From an uncultured bacterium (GTDB lineage: Bacteria; Armatimonadota; UBA5829), in assembly GCA_938074205.1 (NCBI GenBank), contig CALJES010000002.1, positions 1-64,000 on the forward strand: a DNA stretch of 64,000 bases, given 5' to 3'. Below are positions 3,478 through 51,153 of the stretch, piece after piece (position 1 is the first letter of the stretch; each line of letters opens with the position of its first letter). The notes beneath the pieces are model-generated. The model saw nothing but the letters and a program-made list of their open reading frames with translations. It searched no databases and had not been told where the DNA came from. The translations under genes were made by a program, and so were the position numbers.

Positions 3478-3533
3478 CAACGCACATACATTCGGTAGTT
3501 TCACTCTATATCAAGAATAACTGAGGTGGCAAA

Positions 3534-3929
3534 ATGGCAAACGTAGCGGAAGTCATAGAAACCATTAAGAACATGACCGTTCTTGAGCTCAACGAGCTCG
3601 TGAAGGCTCTACAAGAAGAGTTTGGAGTATCGCCGATGGCGATGGCGGCTCCTGTGGCTGTCGCACCCGGCGCCGGTGGTGCAGCTGCTGCACCGGCAGA
3701 GGCTGCTGCCGAGGAAAAAAGCACGTTCGATGTCATACTGAGTTCTGCGGGTGACCAGAAGATCCAGGTCATAAAAGTCGTGCGACAGCTTACCAACCTT
3801 GGCCTCAAAGAGGCTAAGGAACTGGTTGATGGCGCTCCTAAGTCAATAAAGGAAGGCGTATCCAAGGAAGAGGCTGAACAGATGAAGGCCGCTTTGGAGG
3901 AAGTTGGAGCCAAGGTAGAAATCAAGTAA
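3534..3929 (+). CDS. rplL: 50S ribosomal protein L7/L12
   Basis: A 131-residue protein: N-terminal dimerisation domain ([24 protein letters not shown]), an Ala/Pro/Gly-rich hinge, and the C-terminal factor-binding domain ([35 protein letters not shown]). Slightly longer than the usual 120-128 because of the hinge. GAGGTGG precedes the ATG. It makes the flexible stalk that recruits translation GTPases. Unlike many bacteria, rpoB does not follow; the next gene is on the opposite strand. Confidence 0.98.
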
Positions 3930-4009
3930 CCCAAGCACGCTCTTAACGAAAAACTGGAGCCCAGAATCTTTTCGGCCGTCCCGCGAGGCGCAAGACAACA
4001 GATCTGATT

Positions 4010-4032
4010 GCTACCTCCGGGGCGGCATTTTT
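4010..4032 (+). terminator. Possible terminator of rplJL
   Basis: GCTACC (4010-4015), loop TCCGG, GGCGGC (4021-4026) with one mismatch and one G-U pair, then A and five T. Eighty bases after the rplL stop. The stem is short and imperfect, so this is only a candidate. Confidence 0.4.
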
Positions 4033-4169
4033 CAAATTTGTCTGCTAGACACATCATGCTAGGAAACGCGGATCCTAATCGACGCGTTAGGCGCGTACTT
4101 GTGACAGCCGGTGATGCGGGAATGTTATTACCTTGAGGGATTTGCATAAAACGAAGCAACGCAAAGGAC

Positions 4170-4205
4170 TTGATTTTTCTCACGTGTTGCCGATAATAAT
4201 TATCG
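4170..4205 (+). promoter_or_regulatory. Promoter overlapped by a Fur/PerR-like palindrome
   Basis: TTGATT (4170-4175), 16-base spacer, GATAAT (4192-4197). The -10 is embedded in a perfect 7-1-7 inverted repeat CGATAATAATTATCG (4191-4205). Known Fur boxes follow the 7-1-7 pattern TGATAAT-N-ATTATCA, so only the two outermost bases differ. A bound Fur-type repressor would block the -10. The string GCCGATAA (4189-4196) also matches a sigma-28 -10, but its -35 (TTGA) is poor. Assignment to Fur rather than PerR/Zur is inference. Confidence 0.55.
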
Positions 4206-4226
4206 AAATCAAACGTCTAGAATTTC

Positions 4227-4257
4227 TGGAACAAAATCGGGGGCTAGGTCGTATAAT
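4227..4257 (+). promoter_or_regulatory. Second possible promoter before the pyrimidine tract
   Basis: A perfect TATAAT at 4252-4257. The best -35 candidate, TGGAAC at 4227-4232, is weak and the 19-base spacer is long. If used, the transcript would start near 4264 and end at the terminator near 4341, about 78 bases. Confidence 0.35.
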
Positions 4258-4305
4258 AAGGTGAGCAAGGCACACCTTCTCTCTTCCTTCTCCTCCTTTC
4301 CTCTT

Positions 4306-4341
4306 GCCCTGGTTTGAATAAAACCGGGGCATATTTTTTAT
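4306..4341 (+). terminator. Strong intrinsic terminator
   Basis: GCCCTGGTTT (4306-4315), loop GAATA, AAACCGGGGC (4321-4330): a 10-bp stem with one G-U pair, followed by ATATTTTTTATT. The T run is on the + side only, so it ends + transcripts coming from the rplL side or from the candidate small RNA. It overlaps the last codon of the minus-strand deoA. Confidence 0.85.
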
Positions 4342-5666
4342 TGGCTGATCACCTCGTGTACTAGACTCGGTGCGGGATGCTGATGGGTGCCAATCGAGTA
4401 GGCATTTGCAATGATATCCCGCGCTGTTGATGCTCTGTCGACGTCGTCAGCGTGTACGACGGCAAGCCGCTCGCCGTATTCAACCGCGTCACCTAGTTTC
4501 TTATAAATCACTATACCTACGGCTGGGTTTATGGTATCTTCCTTGCGCTCACGTCCGCCGCCCAGAATAGATGATGCTTTCCCTATTGAAGCGCAGTTGA
4601 TTGCTTCGATGAATCCGTTCTTCGGACTGGGCACATCTTCTTTAATTCGCGCTCTTGGCAGCAGACTTGCGTCATCAATAATACTGGCGTTGCCACCTTG
4701 AGCTTGAACGATTTTGCGGAAGACTTCCAGGGCAGATCCATTATCGAGAACGGTCGAAGCATATCGTATGCACTCTTTGTGGGATTGGTGATGTTCAACT
4801 AGATGTAAAATAATTGCACATAGCTGCACACAAAGCTCGCGAAGATCACTGGGTCCTTGGCCCTTCAAAGCGTCTATCGCCTCTGCAACTTCCAGCGCAT
4901 TTCCCACAGCCCTGCCAAGAGGCTGATTCATATCGGTTATTGCGACTGCTACTTTGCGGTTGAAACTTTGGCCGATCGCAAAAAGCATGTTCGACAGCTC
5001 ACGTGCTTGAGCCAGGTCTTTCATGAAAGCTCCGCTTCCTACTTTGACGTCAATCAAGATAACATCGCTCGAGCATGCTATCTTCTTGCTCATTATGCTG
5101 GCAGCAATGTAAGGGATTGAATCCACAGTAGCGGTAGCATCGCGCAAAGCGTAAATCTTCTTGTCAGCGGGGACCAAATCAGCAGTCTGACCTGCAATAG
5201 CAGCGCCGATTTGCTCAACCTGCTGGACAAATTGATCGACACTAAGGGATGTGGTAAAACCGGGTATAGATTCCAGCTTGTCCAGGGTGCCGCCTGTAAA
5301 ACCCAGCCCCCTGCCAGACATTTTCGGAACCTTCAGCCCACAAGCAGCAAGCATCGGCACCAATACCAAAGTTGTCTTGTCGCCTACACCGCCACTAGAG
5401 TGTTTGTCTACCTTTGTGCCGGTAATATTAGACAAGTCCAGCGTGGTACCGCTGTCTACCATCGCCCAGGTTAGTGCAATAGTTTCGTTGAGTGACAAAC
5501 CTCGAATATACGCAGCCATCAGAAATGCGGCCATCTGATAGTCCGGCAACCGATCAGCAGCGTAGTCAAGCACCAATTGCCGGATATCGGATTCGCTTAG
5601 TTCTGCGCCGTCCCGTTTGGCTGTGATAATGTCGAGAACCCTCAAGGTTTTCTCACCTTCCGTCAT
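4338..5666 (-). CDS. deoA: Pyrimidine-nucleoside/thymidine phosphorylase
   Basis: A 442-residue protein, the normal family length. It has the phosphate-binding KHSSGGVGDKTT (88-99) and the full thymidine phosphorylase signature SGRGLGFTGGTLDKLE (117-132). The enzyme cleaves thymidine, deoxyuridine or uridine with phosphate to base and (deoxy)ribose-1-phosphate in the cytosol. It is the last gene of a minus-strand run with a sugar isomerase and a nucleoside hydrolase, consistent with nucleoside catabolism. Family members differ between thymidine-specific (DeoA) and broad (Pdp) activity and I cannot separate these. The ATG has no clear ribosome site. Confidence 0.93.
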   Translation of the reverse strand: MTEGEKTLRVLDIITAKRDGAELSESDIRQLVLDYAADRLPDYQMAAFLMAAYIRGLSLNETIALTWAMVDSGTTLDLSNITGTKVDKHSSGGVGDKTTLVLVPMLAACGLKVPKMSGRGLGFTGGTLDKLESIPGFTTSLSVDQFVQQVEQIGAAIAGQTADLVPADKKIYALRDATATVDSIPYIAASIMSKKIACSSDVILIDVKVGSGAFMKDLAQARELSNMLFAIGQSFNRKVAVAITDMNQPLGRAVGNALEVAEAIDALKGQGPSDLRELCVQLCAIILHLVEHHQSHKECIRYASTVLDNGSALEVFRKIVQAQGGNASIIDDASLLPRARIKEDVPSPKNGFIEAINCASIGKASSILGGGRERKEDTINPAVGIVIYKKLGDAVEYGERLAVVHADDVDRASTARDIIANAYSIGTHQHPAPSLVHEVISQ

Positions 5667-38417: not shown

Positions 38418-40349
38418 CTAGCTTCTGGTATTCCGTATGTAATTCAAGCGGCCGCCTGCAAGTATAACCTCCCTCTCTCGATCCGACAAATCGTGCTTCA
38501 CACGAATTATGAGATCGCGCGTAGAATTCACAATCTGCAAGCTATCTCTTCTTTCGCGCAAGGTTTTTACCACATCATAAATCTCGATTTCGTCGAGTTG
38601 TTGCAACCGGTCATAGTCCGCAGGATCAGCTAGTATCAAGGGAAGAATACCGAAGTTTATTAGATTCTGCCGATGGATGCGGGCGAAGGATTTTGCGACT
38701 ACAGCCTTTACGCCGAGATACATCGGTGCTAGTGCTGCGTGCTCACGAGAAGATCCTTGACCATAGTTTTCCCCCGCCAAGATGAAACCGCCGCCGTATT
38801 GCTTGGCTCTTTCCGAAAAGTTCGGGTCGACTGAAGAGAAGACGTATTCAGATATCGCAGGAATGTTCGATCGGAGCGGCAAAATCTTCGAACCAGCTGG
38901 CATTATGTGGTCTGTAGTAATGTTGTCGCCTACCTTCAGCAGTATTCGTCCGCGAAGGACCTCGGGCATAGGCTCTGCTTCTGGCAGAGGTTTTATATTA
39001 GGGCCGCGGACAATTTCTACTGTTTCAGGTCTTTCGCTTGGGGGAATTATCATTCCGTCGTCAATGACAAACCTTTCAGGCAGTTCAAAAACGGGAGGTT
39101 CTCCCAGCTTTCGTGGATCTACAATCTCGCCGAAAATGGCTGCTGCTGCAGCTGTTTCCGGGCTGGCCAGATATACTTGAGCAGACTTGGTGCCGCTCCG
39201 CCCTTCGAAGTTGCGGTTGAATGTTCTCACCGACACGCCGTCTGTTTTAGGAGCTTGACCCATTCCTATGCACGGTCCGCACGCACATTCCAATATTCGC
39301 GCTCCCGCAGCGATCAAGTCGGCCAGTGCGCCATTTCGTGCAATCATTTCCAGCACTTGTCTAGAGCCCGGACTTACTACCAGACTTACATCTGGGTGCA
39401 CAGTCTTGCCGCGAAGCATACCAGCGACAACCATTAAATCTCTAAGCGAAGAATTTGTGCAGCTACCAATAGCAACCTGATCAACTTTTATGCCTTCAAC
39501 TTCTGCTACGCGACACACATTATCCGGCATATGAGGTCGAGCTATCATCGGCTCCAGATTATCTAAGTTTAGTTCCAAAACTTGGTCATATTGTGCGTCC
39601 TCGTCTGCGCAAATCTCCCGCCATTCACTCTCACGCTCCTGGGCGAGCATAAATGCGCGGGTAATTTCATCGCTGGGGAAAATGGAACTTGTTGCGCCAA
39701 GTTCAGCTCCCATGTTTGCTATAGTGGCGCGGTCTGTAACAGCGAGGGATTTCACACCTTCGCCGCCATACTCCATGATCTTGCCTACGCCGCCTTTGAC
39801 GCTGAGTATTCGCAACAGTTCCAGAATTATATCCTTTGCGGACACCCATTTCTGTAGTTTGCCGACGAGTCTAACCAAGCATATCTTTGGCATAGGCATG
39901 TAGAACGGTTCGCCCGCCATTGCGGCAGCTACGTCCAATCCGCCAGCGCCTATACCGAGGGTTCCCAACCCACCTGCTGTAGGTGTGTGACTGTCGGAAC
40001 CAAGCAACGTATCTCCGGGAACATCAAAGCGCTCCAACTGAACTTGGTGACAGATTCCGTTCCCGGGTCTAGAAAAGTAGATACCATATTTGGCTGCTAT
40101 ACTCTGCAGGTAAGCGTGATCGTCGGCGTTCTCAGGTCCAGTCTGGAGCGTGTTGTGGTCTACATAGCTCACAGATCTCTTGGTTCGCACCCGGGGCACA
40201 TTCATTGCCTCGAACTGCAGATAAGCGAGCGTTCCAGTTGCATCTTGGGTGAGAGTCTGATCAATACGTATGGCAATCTCATAGCCCGGAATCATCCGGC
40301 CCTCTACCAAATGCTCTGATATTATCTTTTGTGATATGCTCAGTCCCAT
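38418..40349 (-). CDS. acn: Aconitate hydratase
   Basis: A 643-residue enzyme of the mitochondrial-like/short aconitase group. Active-site and cluster segments: LGSDSHTPTAGGLGTLGIGAGG, GSCTNSSLRDL, and ECACGPCIGMGQAP with cysteines for the [4Fe-4S] cluster; the C-terminal swivel domain has AGENYGQGSSREHAAL. It isomerises citrate and isocitrate in the TCA cycle. A homoaconitase/isopropylmalate isomerase is less likely because both subunits are fused. The ATG lacks a clear ribosome site. It follows the GH38 gene by 33 bases on the same strand. Confidence 0.92.
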   Translation of the reverse strand: MGLSISQKIISEHLVEGRMIPGYEIAIRIDQTLTQDATGTLAYLQFEAMNVPRVRTKRSVSYVDHNTLQTGPENADDHAYLQSIAAKYGIYFSRPGNGICHQVQLERFDVPGDTLLGSDSHTPTAGGLGTLGIGAGGLDVAAAMAGEPFYMPMPKICLVRLVGKLQKWVSAKDIILELLRILSVKGGVGKIMEYGGEGVKSLAVTDRATIANMGAELGATSSIFPSDEITRAFMLAQERESEWREICADEDAQYDQVLELNLDNLEPMIARPHMPDNVCRVAEVEGIKVDQVAIGSCTNSSLRDLMVVAGMLRGKTVHPDVSLVVSPGSRQVLEMIARNGALADLIAAGARILECACGPCIGMGQAPKTDGVSVRTFNRNFEGRSGTKSAQVYLASPETAAAAAIFGEIVDPRKLGEPPVFELPERFVIDDGMIIPPSERPETVEIVRGPNIKPLPEAEPMPEVLRGRILLKVGDNITTDHIMPAGSKILPLRSNIPAISEYVFSSVDPNFSERAKQYGGGFILAGENYGQGSSREHAALAPMYLGVKAVVAKSFARIHRQNLINFGILPLILADPADYDRLQQLDEIEIYDVVKTLRERRDSLQIVNSTRDLIIRVKHDLSDREREVILAGGRLNYIRNTRS

Positions 40350-48350: not shown

Positions 48351-49148
48351 TTGAAGATCTGTGTTTGCATAAAACAAGTTCCAGCGACTACGGATGTCAA
48401 GATTGACCCGGAAACGAATACCCTCATCCGCGAAGGCATTGAAAATCAGATAAACCCTTTTGACTTGTATGCGCTGGAGGAAGCAGTTCGCACAAAGGAA
48501 CGCAGGATTGCTGAGGGTGATCAATCTACTGTGACGGCAATCTCGATGGGTCCTCCTTGGGCTGAAGAAGCGCTGCGCGAAGCTATTTCACTTGGGGCAG
48601 ACGATGCGATTCTGCTCTCTGACAAAGCGTTTGCCGGGGCAGATACTTGGTGTACTTCCTACACTCTGGCCAAGGCACTGCAAAAGATCAACCCGGATCT
48701 GATCTTCTGCGGTATGCAGGCAATAGACGGTGATACGGGCCAAGTTGGGCCAGGAATAGCAGCGCATCTAAATTACGCTCAGGCAGCTTACGTTGCTAAA
48801 ATCGAGTTTATCGATAACCGAAAACTAGTAGCTCGCCGACTTATCGAAGAAGGCTATGAAGTTGTCGAAGTTGCCCTGCCTGCTGTTCTAACCGTAGTGA
48901 AAGAAATCAACGAACCGCGAACGCCTTCCTTGCGCGGGAAGATGAATGCCAAAAAAGCTCAGATTCCGGTATGGGGTCCTGCGGACATTGGTGCAGATCC
49001 TGAGAAGATAGGTCTTCGTGGCTCACCTACGCAGGTGATCAAGGTAATGACTCCGCCATGCCGCGCGGGCGGCGCAAAATACGAAGGCGAGCCCGATGAA
49101 CTCGCCGAAAAGCTTTACGACGTGCTCAAGTGTTTGGAGGTGGTGTAG
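48351..49148 (+). CDS. etfB: Electron transfer flavoprotein beta subunit
   Basis: A 265-residue EtfB: MKICVCIKQVPATTDVKIDP, GPPWAEEALREAISLGADDAILLSD, CGMQAIDGDTGQVGPGIAAHL and the C-terminal LTVVKEINEPRTPSLRGKMNAKK recognition-loop segment. It binds a nucleotide or flavin at the interface with EtfA. The start is TTG with GAGAGG upstream. Its stop overlaps the etfA start by one base. The DGDTxQVGP form is seen in bifurcating Etf groups. Confidence 0.94.
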   Translation: MKICVCIKQVPATTDVKIDPETNTLIREGIENQINPFDLYALEEAVRTKERRIAEGDQSTVTAISMGPPWAEEALREAISLGADDAILLSDKAFAGADTWCTSYTLAKALQKINPDLIFCGMQAIDGDTGQVGPGIAAHLNYAQAAYVAKIEFIDNRKLVARRLIEEGYEVVEVALPAVLTVVKEINEPRTPSLRGKMNAKKAQIPVWGPADIGADPEKIGLRGSPTQVIKVMTPPCRAGGAKYEGEPDELAEKLYDVLKCLEVV

Positions 49149-50362
49149 TGTCGATATATGTCGACCCAGAAAAATGCAACGGGTGCGGACTTTGCGTTAA
49201 AAGTTGTCCTTATAACGTTATCGAGGTCACTGACAAGCTTGCTACTATCACTGTTGAAGGCTGCACTATGTGCGGTGCTTGTGTTGCGGCCTGCAGGTTC
49301 AAGGCTATCTCCATCGACATCGACCGACAGCCTGTTGAAGACCTCGAAAACTACCGCGGTGTTTGGATATTTGGCGAGCAGCGCGAAGGCAAAGTTGCAC
49401 CTGTGGTTTATGAGTTGATAGGTGTAGGGCGCAAGCTCGCCGATGCCAGAAAAGCGGAGCTTGCAGTTATCATCCTAGGCTACCATCTTAACTCCGCCGT
49501 GGAAGAGCTGGCAAGTTATCCGGTTGACAAGGTATATGTCTATGAAGCTCCTGAGCTTGCAGTTTACGATGCCGAGAGATATTGTCGAGTTCTGTCGGAC
49601 GTAACGCGTCGCTTGAAACCAGAGATATTCCTTGCAGGGGCTACTACAACCGGTCGCAGCTTTATGTCCGGGGTTGCAATCAACCTCTACACAGGGCTTA
49701 CAGCGGATTGTACGGGGCTAGAAATAGGTGACGACGGACTGCTTTACCAAACTCGCCCTGCTTATGGTGGCAACATAATGGCGACCATTCTCTGCCGTTA
49801 CACAAGACCCCAGATGGCCACCGTTCGTCATAAAGTTTTTCCGATGCCCTGCAAGCGCGAGTCAGGAAAAGCCGAGGTTGTCAGATTGGAGCCGCAGCCC
49901 GCACTCTTCGCGTCCCGTAGCAAGGTGATCGATTTCATCGAAGAGGTAGGGGAGAAAGTCAACCTAGTTGACGCCGATATCATTGTCTCTGGCGGTCGAG
50001 GTTTAGGAGGACCGGAAAATTTTGCCATTATCCGTGAACTGGCGGACGAGCTGGGAGCTGCCGTAGGAGCCAGCCGAGCAGCCGTAGATGCCGGCTGGAT
50101 CTCATACGCTCACCAAGTAGGCCAGACTGGAAAAACTGTTTGCCCGAAGGTATACATTGCTTGCGGAATCAGCGGCGCTGTGCAGCACCAGGTCGGAATG
50201 AAAAGCTCTGATGTTATAATCGCGATCAACAAAGATCCGAACGCTCCGATTTTCGATATAGCTGACTATGGGTTCGTGGGAGATCTTTTCCAAATAGTCC
50301 CAGCTCTCACTCGGAAAATAAGGGCGATGCGAGGAACCGAACCCGTGTGCGGAACAACCTAG
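49148..50362 (+). CDS. etfA: Electron transfer flavoprotein alpha subunit with N-terminal ferredoxin domain
   Basis: A 404-residue EtfA fusion. Residues 10-49 hold two [4Fe-4S] motifs, C10-x2-C13-x2-C16-x3-C20 and C39-x2-C42-x2-C45-x3-C49. The EtfA domain follows, with the FAD-binding C-terminal part GGRGLGGPENFAIIRELAD, SRAAVDAGWISYAHQVGQTGK, GISGAVQHQVGM and NKDPNAPIFDIADYGFVGD. Ferredoxin-fused EtfA occurs in clostridial-type, often electron-bifurcating complexes. GTG 49148 follows GGAGGTG and overlaps the etfB stop. The dehydrogenase partner is not adjacent. Confidence 0.93.
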   Translation: MSIYVDPEKCNGCGLCVKSCPYNVIEVTDKLATITVEGCTMCGACVAACRFKAISIDIDRQPVEDLENYRGVWIFGEQREGKVAPVVYELIGVGRKLADARKAELAVIILGYHLNSAVEELASYPVDKVYVYEAPELAVYDAERYCRVLSDVTRRLKPEIFLAGATTTGRSFMSGVAINLYTGLTADCTGLEIGDDGLLYQTRPAYGGNIMATILCRYTRPQMATVRHKVFPMPCKRESGKAEVVRLEPQPALFASRSKVIDFIEEVGEKVNLVDADIIVSGGRGLGGPENFAIIRELADELGAAVGASRAAVDAGWISYAHQVGQTGKTVCPKVYIACGISGAVQHQVGMKSSDVIIAINKDPNAPIFDIADYGFVGDLFQIVPALTRKIRAMRGTEPVCGTT

Positions 50363-50496: not shown

Positions 50497-51132
50497 CTAT
50501 TTTCGGCGGCGCAGTCTTAGGCCGACAAGACTCACGGTGCTTAGCAGCAGCGTACCGAGAGTGCTGGGTTCCGGTACCACGACTTTGATTCCATCAAATG
50601 CCGTTGCCCTGCCGGCTTTTGTGCCGGTCTGAGTGTGGTCCAGAAAGATCGTCATTGACGGTCCCGTAGCGGTGACTTCAAAGCTGAACTCAGTCCACAC
50701 TTGCGACACGGCACCGTCAAGCATAGCTCCCCACTCAGTCGGTCGTTCCGTTCCGCCTGTCAAGTCTACCCCTACGCGAGCTACAGAAGTACCAGACAAC
50801 GGGCGGAACCAGCCGCTAACAATGTACAACTGGCCCGGGATAACATCAAACGTCTGGTAGAAGCCAGCATAGGTTCCGGCAATTGCAGCCAGCGTTTGTA
50901 TCTGGGCATATTGCACACCATCAGGCACAGGTGTGGTTCCAGATGTGTAACGGAGCATTTGCGGGTTGCAAGTCTGGTCAGTGTAGACTGTCCACCCGGT
51001 CGGCACCGTGTAGTCGAAGCGGCCGTCGTTTGGCAGAACCGGCTCTTCAAAGCTTCCGTTTACAAGCGGCCCAGCCGAAGCTACTAATGTGCCTGCGAGC
51101 AACAAACCCAAGATAGCAATAAACAGCCTCAT
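50497..51132 (-). CDS. PEP-CTERM sorted secreted protein
   Basis: A 211-residue protein: signal peptide (MRLFIAILGLLLAGTLVASA), a carbohydrate-binding-like beta-sandwich starting LVNGSFEEPVLPND with TGWTVYTD and FYQTFDVIPGQLYIVSGWFRP, and a C-terminal VPEPSTLGTLLL-helix-RLRRRK sorting signal. PEP-CTERM proteins are processed by exosortase and displayed on the envelope. ATG 51132 follows GGAGGG; an in-frame ATG 21 bases upstream is less likely. A strong terminator follows. Confidence 0.9.
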   Translation of the reverse strand: MRLFIAILGLLLAGTLVASAGPLVNGSFEEPVLPNDGRFDYTVPTGWTVYTDQTCNPQMLRYTSGTTPVPDGVQYAQIQTLAAIAGTYAGFYQTFDVIPGQLYIVSGWFRPLSGTSVARVGVDLTGGTERPTEWGAMLDGAVSQVWTEFSFEVTATGPSMTIFLDHTQTGTKAGRATAFDGIKVVVPEPSTLGTLLLSTVSLVGLRLRRRK

Positions 51133-51153
51133 TTCTCTCTTCCCTCCTTTCAT

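Follow-up and report, generated by a model that had tools for sequence, protein, structure and literature searches.

A predicted CU-rich small RNA family with an ECF-type promoter in the rplL-deoA gap of an uncultured member of the Armatimonadota

The window analysed here is a 64,000-nucleotide stretch of DNA from an uncultured bacterium of the Armatimonadota, whose genome (G000) measures 3.02 Mb and is 97.9% complete. Within the window rplL, which encodes ribosomal protein bL12 (3534-3929, + strand), converges on deoA, which encodes a protein of the thymidine phosphorylase family (4338-5666, - strand); both were taken from a list of open reading frames and named from sequence. No plausible gene was found in the gap between them. 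A 225-aa open reading frame at 3506-4183 (- strand), antisense to rplL, reaches into the gap and is probably not a gene. The gap contains a predicted small RNA (sRNA) gene of ~78-80 nt (4260-4337, + strand), made up of a weak 5' hairpin, a CU tract and an intrinsic terminator. An ECF-type promoter precedes it (4228-4253, + strand), with the -35 element GGAAC at 4228-4232, a 17-nt spacer and the -10 element CGTA at 4250-4253, and we placed the start of the RNA at 4260, 6-8 nt past the CGTA. The tract is a run of 31 pyrimidines (4275-4305, + strand) that contains UCUCCUCCUUUC and is proposed to be the seed for Shine-Dalgarno (SD) regions. The terminator hairpin follows at 4305-4331 (+ strand), and the T run behind it extends to ~4340, overlapping the 3' end of deoA. 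Upstream, and outside the conserved unit, lie a perfect 7-1-7 palindrome, CGATAATAATTATCG (4191-4205), and a possible second promoter of the sigma70 type, TTGATT-N16-GATAAT (4170-4197, + strand), whose hexamers and spacing are identical only in the sister species G002.

An earlier note on this DNA had described a promoter with its -10 in the palindrome, a pyrimidine run and a terminator within a gene-free gap, and each of these elements is in place. The second TATAAT that it listed is also present (4252-4257) and overlaps the CGTA. As a conserved -10 the TATAAT was rejected, because CGTA is the element kept in relatives; the overlap of the two in both G000 and G002 accounts for the misreading. 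Apart from the 31-base run, no stretch of 25 or more bases in the window consists purely of pyrimidines or purely of purines, and the run together with its cross-species conservation is far above chance. Terminator-like sites occur in the window at the level of shuffled sequence, and the five perfect 7-1-7 palindromes compare with 2-6 in shuffles, so that the palindrome alone is unremarkable.

Comparison with relatives bears out the existence of a small, terminator-ended, CU-rich sRNA gene. In G002, a sister species of the same genus, the region is 77% identical overall, while the sRNA (4260-~4337) is identical at 75 of 78 positions (96%). The CU tract (31/31), the GGAAC box (5/5) and CGTATAATA (9/9) are unchanged, and the terminator is conserved at 26 of 27 positions. 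Outside the RNA, identity amounts to 9/17 (53%) in the promoter spacer, 12/21 at 4206-4226, 22/33 further upstream and 48/65 at the deoA 3' end, so that the spacer and flanks span 53-74% as compared with 96% for the RNA. Furthermore, the terminator helix covaries: in a set of 15 sequences both partners have changed in seven of its nine pairs, and its cells are paired at 95.6% versus 54-58% when the alignment is slid by one column.

A covariance model (R1) was built on the RNA alone from 15 sequences, most of which had been chosen by promoter pattern; the copies from G000, G001, G002 and G014 came from plain BLAST. With R1, 17 copies of this family, termed family A, were detected at E < 5e-9, the strongest hits in relatives reaching E 5e-17. 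They are spread over 13 of the order's 19 genomes, and R1 gave no convincing match elsewhere in the phylum. Linkage to a convergent deoA is kept in G001, G002 and G014, with two tandem copies each in G001 (L023) and G014 (L025). Family A copies are frequently tandem, and several are located away from deoA. A search with a promoter-plus-tract pattern gave zero matches in its controls within the order; its matches outside the order were rejected as being at control level, and some of them look coding. Nothing in Rfam matched this sRNA at the gathering threshold. We are highly confident that the rplL-deoA gap contains an sRNA gene that is conserved and has a promoter of the ECF type.

The promoter GGAAC-N17-CGTA was found at all 17 family A copies (two with an 18-nt spacer), ~30 nt before the start set by the model, and in G002 both boxes are 100% kept around a spacer conserved at 53%. 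GGAAC is an ECF-type -35; the -35 of Escherichia coli RpoE is GGAACTT (PMC8103513). A sibling family, family B, first surfaced as weak R1 hits and was then collected by the RNA motif GCAAACCTTCCCACCCTC only. It is present in 14 of the order's 19 genomes, with 21 distinct copies for which upstream sequence is available; the copy in G000 lies at C3:131224-131301 (- strand; L191), and others include L192, L195, L199 and L204. Since family B was gathered by RNA sequence alone, it provides a clean test of the promoter, and GGAAC-N17-CGT precedes 21 of 21 copies. Matches in G077 and G222 were dropped, as they carry one mismatch and lack promoter or terminator context. The 5' half of family B, TAGCAAACCTTCCCACCCTCTTTTCTC, is near-invariant, an extreme conservation that reaches beyond the CU core, and up to three tandem copies occur per contig.

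Additional CU-rich candidates were observed alongside these two families. Two tandem, terminator-ended candidates lie at G000:C7:38889-38976 and 39076-39161 (- strand; L190), and at these, as at G002:C130 (L200), a sigma70-like promoter (TTGACA ... GGTAAT or similar) replaces the ECF element. A further candidate family in L194, L196, L198 and L202 (G004, G009, G011 and G013) reads GTGGCACAA..CATCTTTTCCTCCTTCCCTCC or a close variant, followed by a GGGCTTCGC hairpin, and in most cases has another TGGCACAA ahead of it.

Sigma70_r4_2 matches number 17 in G000, and the strict promoter element precedes only one sigma locus, C6:4070-4645, at 59 nt before the start. This gene encodes a 192-aa ECF sigma factor with a zf-HC2 protein (above cut-off) downstream. 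Its best NCBIfam scores, to SigE, SigW and RpoE, fall short of the cut-offs of those families and pass the one for sigma70-ECF factors in general. In most relatives, too, GGAAC-N17/18-CGT lies 48-63 nt before this sigma gene, and for this reason we consider it the likely activator of the sRNA. ECF sigma factors commonly regulate their own genes in this way. The exceptions are G006 and G012, which lack the sRNAs as well, and G018, in which the sRNAs are present and the sigma factor is only 41% identical. In G007 and G010 the sigma gene has its promoter and the sRNA was undetected. The sigma factor was picked for sharing the promoter, and another ECF factor of similar specificity may be the driver instead.

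The same regulon likely includes a secreted protein with GGAAC-N17-CGTA 45-47 nt upstream of its gene in both G000 (L104:2-1453, - strand) and G008 (C13, L401-L420 joined, 194853-196604, - strand). The two copies are 47% identical; Pfam assigned neither to a family, and NCBIfam gave none for the G000 copy, making this a protein of no known family. The element is also found at htpX (-143) and greA (-191) in G000, and such single hits are weak because the 28 genome-wide matches barely exceed the 20 of a reversed control. A gene for Hfq was found in 16 of the 19 relatives searched and is also encoded in G000. The sequences themselves thus show a conserved RNA with its tract and terminator, the promoter, a sigma gene bearing the same promoter, and an Hfq gene.

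Two other readings of the gap were weighed against an sRNA under ECF control. The hairpin occupies precisely the junction of the two convergent genes, and its T run extends into the deoA end, as would be expected of a terminator serving both rplL and deoA, or of a 3' UTR element, that produces no trans-acting RNA. Such an element does not explain why an own promoter is conserved, why tandem arrays exist with several copies not beside deoA, or why the CU tract, which termination does not need, is the best conserved part, and we consider it very improbable. The earlier note had instead proposed a Fur-regulated, iron-sparing sRNA resembling RyhB, FsrA or IsaR1, a reading to which the closeness of the upstream palindrome to a Fur box, the CU-rich and terminator-ended RNA and the partial retention of the palindrome in G002 (13/15, with one arm broken) lend some weight. 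However, a search with PF01475 found no Fur-family gene in the 97.9% complete G000, nor in six other sRNA carriers (G002, G004, G005, G008, G015 and G018); the same search was positive in 13 of 14 control genomes. The palindrome occurs exactly once in G000, is absent at the other, more distant family A copies, and belongs to a class present at chance level in the window. Moreover, the iron-type targets that had been suggested are not favoured, as aconitase ranks 18 and the ferredoxin-fused EtfA 31 among the 53 start regions of the window. Pfam did confirm N-terminal 4Fe-4S ferredoxin domains in this EtfA (49130-50362, + strand). The absence of a Fur-family gene is among the outcomes that the earlier note itself had named as refuting its proposal. 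The tract and terminator of the earlier note are conserved among relatives, its palindrome is not, and Fur control is no more probable in our estimation than the terminator reading. The sRNA family appears to be new, and ECF-controlled rather than Fur-controlled.

The CU tract points to how the RNA might act. The 16S rRNA of G000 ends in GGATCACCTCCTTTCT, and the tract sequence UCUCCUCCUUUC is one base off its 3' stretch UCACCUCCUUUC. In several relatives the tract reads UUUCACCUCCUUUC, which holds an exact 12-nt copy of the same 16S stretch. In the minimum free energy (MFE) fold most of the tract is unpaired. Because the tract mimics the 16S anti-SD sequence, is single-stranded in the MFE fold and occurs in a genome that encodes Hfq, pairing with SD regions is the most likely action, and we regard anti-SD pairing as quite probable.

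In the window, the top predicted target is a secreted PEP-CTERM protein (50497-51153, - strand; PF07589 at 20.8 bits against a cut-off of 20.7), whose start region, AAAGGAGGGAAGAGAGAAATG, ranks first of 53 at -33.0 kcal/mol and can pair with both tract halves. Among 43 open reading frames of G000 with AAGGAGGW-N3..9-ATG, the best tract pairers are mostly secreted proteins, several with a PEP-CTERM end; PF07589 was found in five of seven such PEP-CTERM-type proteins scanned, four of them above cut-off. Enrichment was then measured in ~400 kb of G000 (plus the window) and in the 387-kb contig C13 of G008, with PEP-CTERM genes defined by C-terminus only and pairing scored against each species' own tract. 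PEP-CTERM start regions pair better than those of other genes in G000 plus the window (p=0.0019, 3 genes) and in G008 (p=0.0011, 12 genes); as the target idea arose from inspecting G000 hits, G008 is the sole independent test. Gene and signal-peptide calls were simple heuristics, and the duplex energies ignore accessibility. Proteins with signal peptides were rejected as a general class, with p=0.0016 among strong-SD genes but p=0.15 in both samples unselected and with PEP-CTERM genes set aside.

PEP-CTERM genes also have stronger SD sequences, which raises the alternative that the ECF-controlled, CU-rich sRNA is a broad, low-specificity brake on strong-SD mRNAs without a target class. The tract differs from the 16S anti-SD by a single base, genes with a strong SD and diverse functions (rplJ among them) pair well with it, and SD strength accounts for part of the PEP-CTERM signal. 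Nevertheless, a modest residual effect remains after regression on SD strength (p=0.0025 for the 3 genes of G000; p=0.035 for the 12 of G008), and the tract, which reaches well past the SD core, is conserved over its full length in G002. When the anti-SD core was kept and the flanks were random, the observed difference was reached in 0/150 (G000) and 1/150 (G008) trials; when the core was kept and the flanks were shuffled, preserving their CU-richness, it was reached in 3/150 and 17/150. These results support pairing of the CU-rich flanks with the PEP-CTERM class and fall short of proving specificity. We judge the broad brake unlikely, and the proposal that PEP-CTERM proteins are the main targets is a tentative one, somewhat short of an even call.

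Our preferred reading remains an ECF-driven, trans-acting anti-SD sRNA that represses PEP-CTERM mRNAs, which as a whole we hold to be fairly likely. According to this model, envelope-type stress would free the ECF sigma factor from its zinc-finger (zf-HC2) anti-sigma, and the freed sigma would transcribe the ~80-nt sRNA and its sibling family from GGAAC-N17-CGTA promoters. The open CU tract would then pair with purine-rich ribosome-binding sites, probably assisted by Hfq, and block translation initiation, with mRNAs of secreted PEP-CTERM surface proteins as favoured targets. The outcome would be a repression arm like that of RybB and MicA within the sigma-E response. We infer transcription, activation by the C6:4070-4645 sigma factor, base-pairing, repression, the target class and the inducing stress. 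A more speculative extension, which we put forward as doubtful, is a dedicated ECF regulon in which at least two anti-SD sRNA families, often tandem, shut off the synthesis of exosortase-sorted PEP-CTERM surface proteins during envelope stress, as a counterpart to the sigma-E/RybB arm that evolved independently. If true, this would be the first riboregulation of PEP-CTERM proteins, as far as the literature was searched, and would indicate that ECF sigma factors with anti-SD sRNAs relieving the secretion machinery arose outside Proteobacteria too. A literature search on PEP-CTERM together with sRNA returned nothing relevant, and an incomplete search found no papers on sRNAs of Armatimonadota. 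Now that the promoter is defined and a candidate sigma factor and specific predicted targets are named, stress control at the post-transcriptional level can be tested directly in this phylum.

Several known systems share parts of this arrangement. GsrN of Caulobacter (PMC5869019) is likewise under ECF (sigma-T) control and uses a C-rich seed on G-rich mRNA leaders; it differs in presenting a C-rich loop and activating katG, where the RNA described here has a long open tract, and we claim no sequence relation. The Neisseria NmsR/RcoF RNAs (Rfam RF02877; PMC5362039) resemble it in their 5' hairpin, CU-rich anti-SD stretch, terminator and tandem copies, but are under RelA rather than ECF sigma control (PMC5362039). 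NmsRb (RF02877) was the best Rfam match, and membership was rejected on a weak full-length alignment of 22 bits versus a gathering score of 52. The Cuckoo RNAs of Alphaproteobacteria (alpha-r14, CcsR1-4) are tandem siblings with anti-SD CCUCC motifs, and the CcsR genes lie behind a stress-sigma (RpoHI/RpoHII) promoter (PMC10253847, PMC10746234). Tandem siblings, an anti-SD motif and a stress-sigma promoter are thus common to both groups. In contrast, alpha-r14 carries CCUCCUCCC in unpaired parts of hairpins, whereas the tract here, UCUCCUCCUUUCC, is left open by the MFE fold. The CcsRs are processed from a single precursor together with a DUF1127 gene, whereas each copy here has its own ECF promoter and terminator. 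The CCUCCUCCC hairpin motif was not found in our RNA, nor was there an Rfam match to this group.

The closest functional parallel that we propose is with RybB and MicA, the sigma-E-dependent sRNAs of enterobacteria (PMC1804206, PMC8103513). Both arrangements pair an ECF sigma with an anti-sigma (RpoE -35 GGAACTT, here GGAAC), a link that we infer in the present case; repression of mRNAs of envelope or secreted proteins is proposed here as a further parallel, and a gene for Hfq is present. The two differ in that the seed proposed here is an internal CU tract, and homology is not claimed. Furthermore, the targets are porins in enterobacteria and are proposed to be PEP-CTERM proteins here, where the sRNAs form sibling families of several copies.
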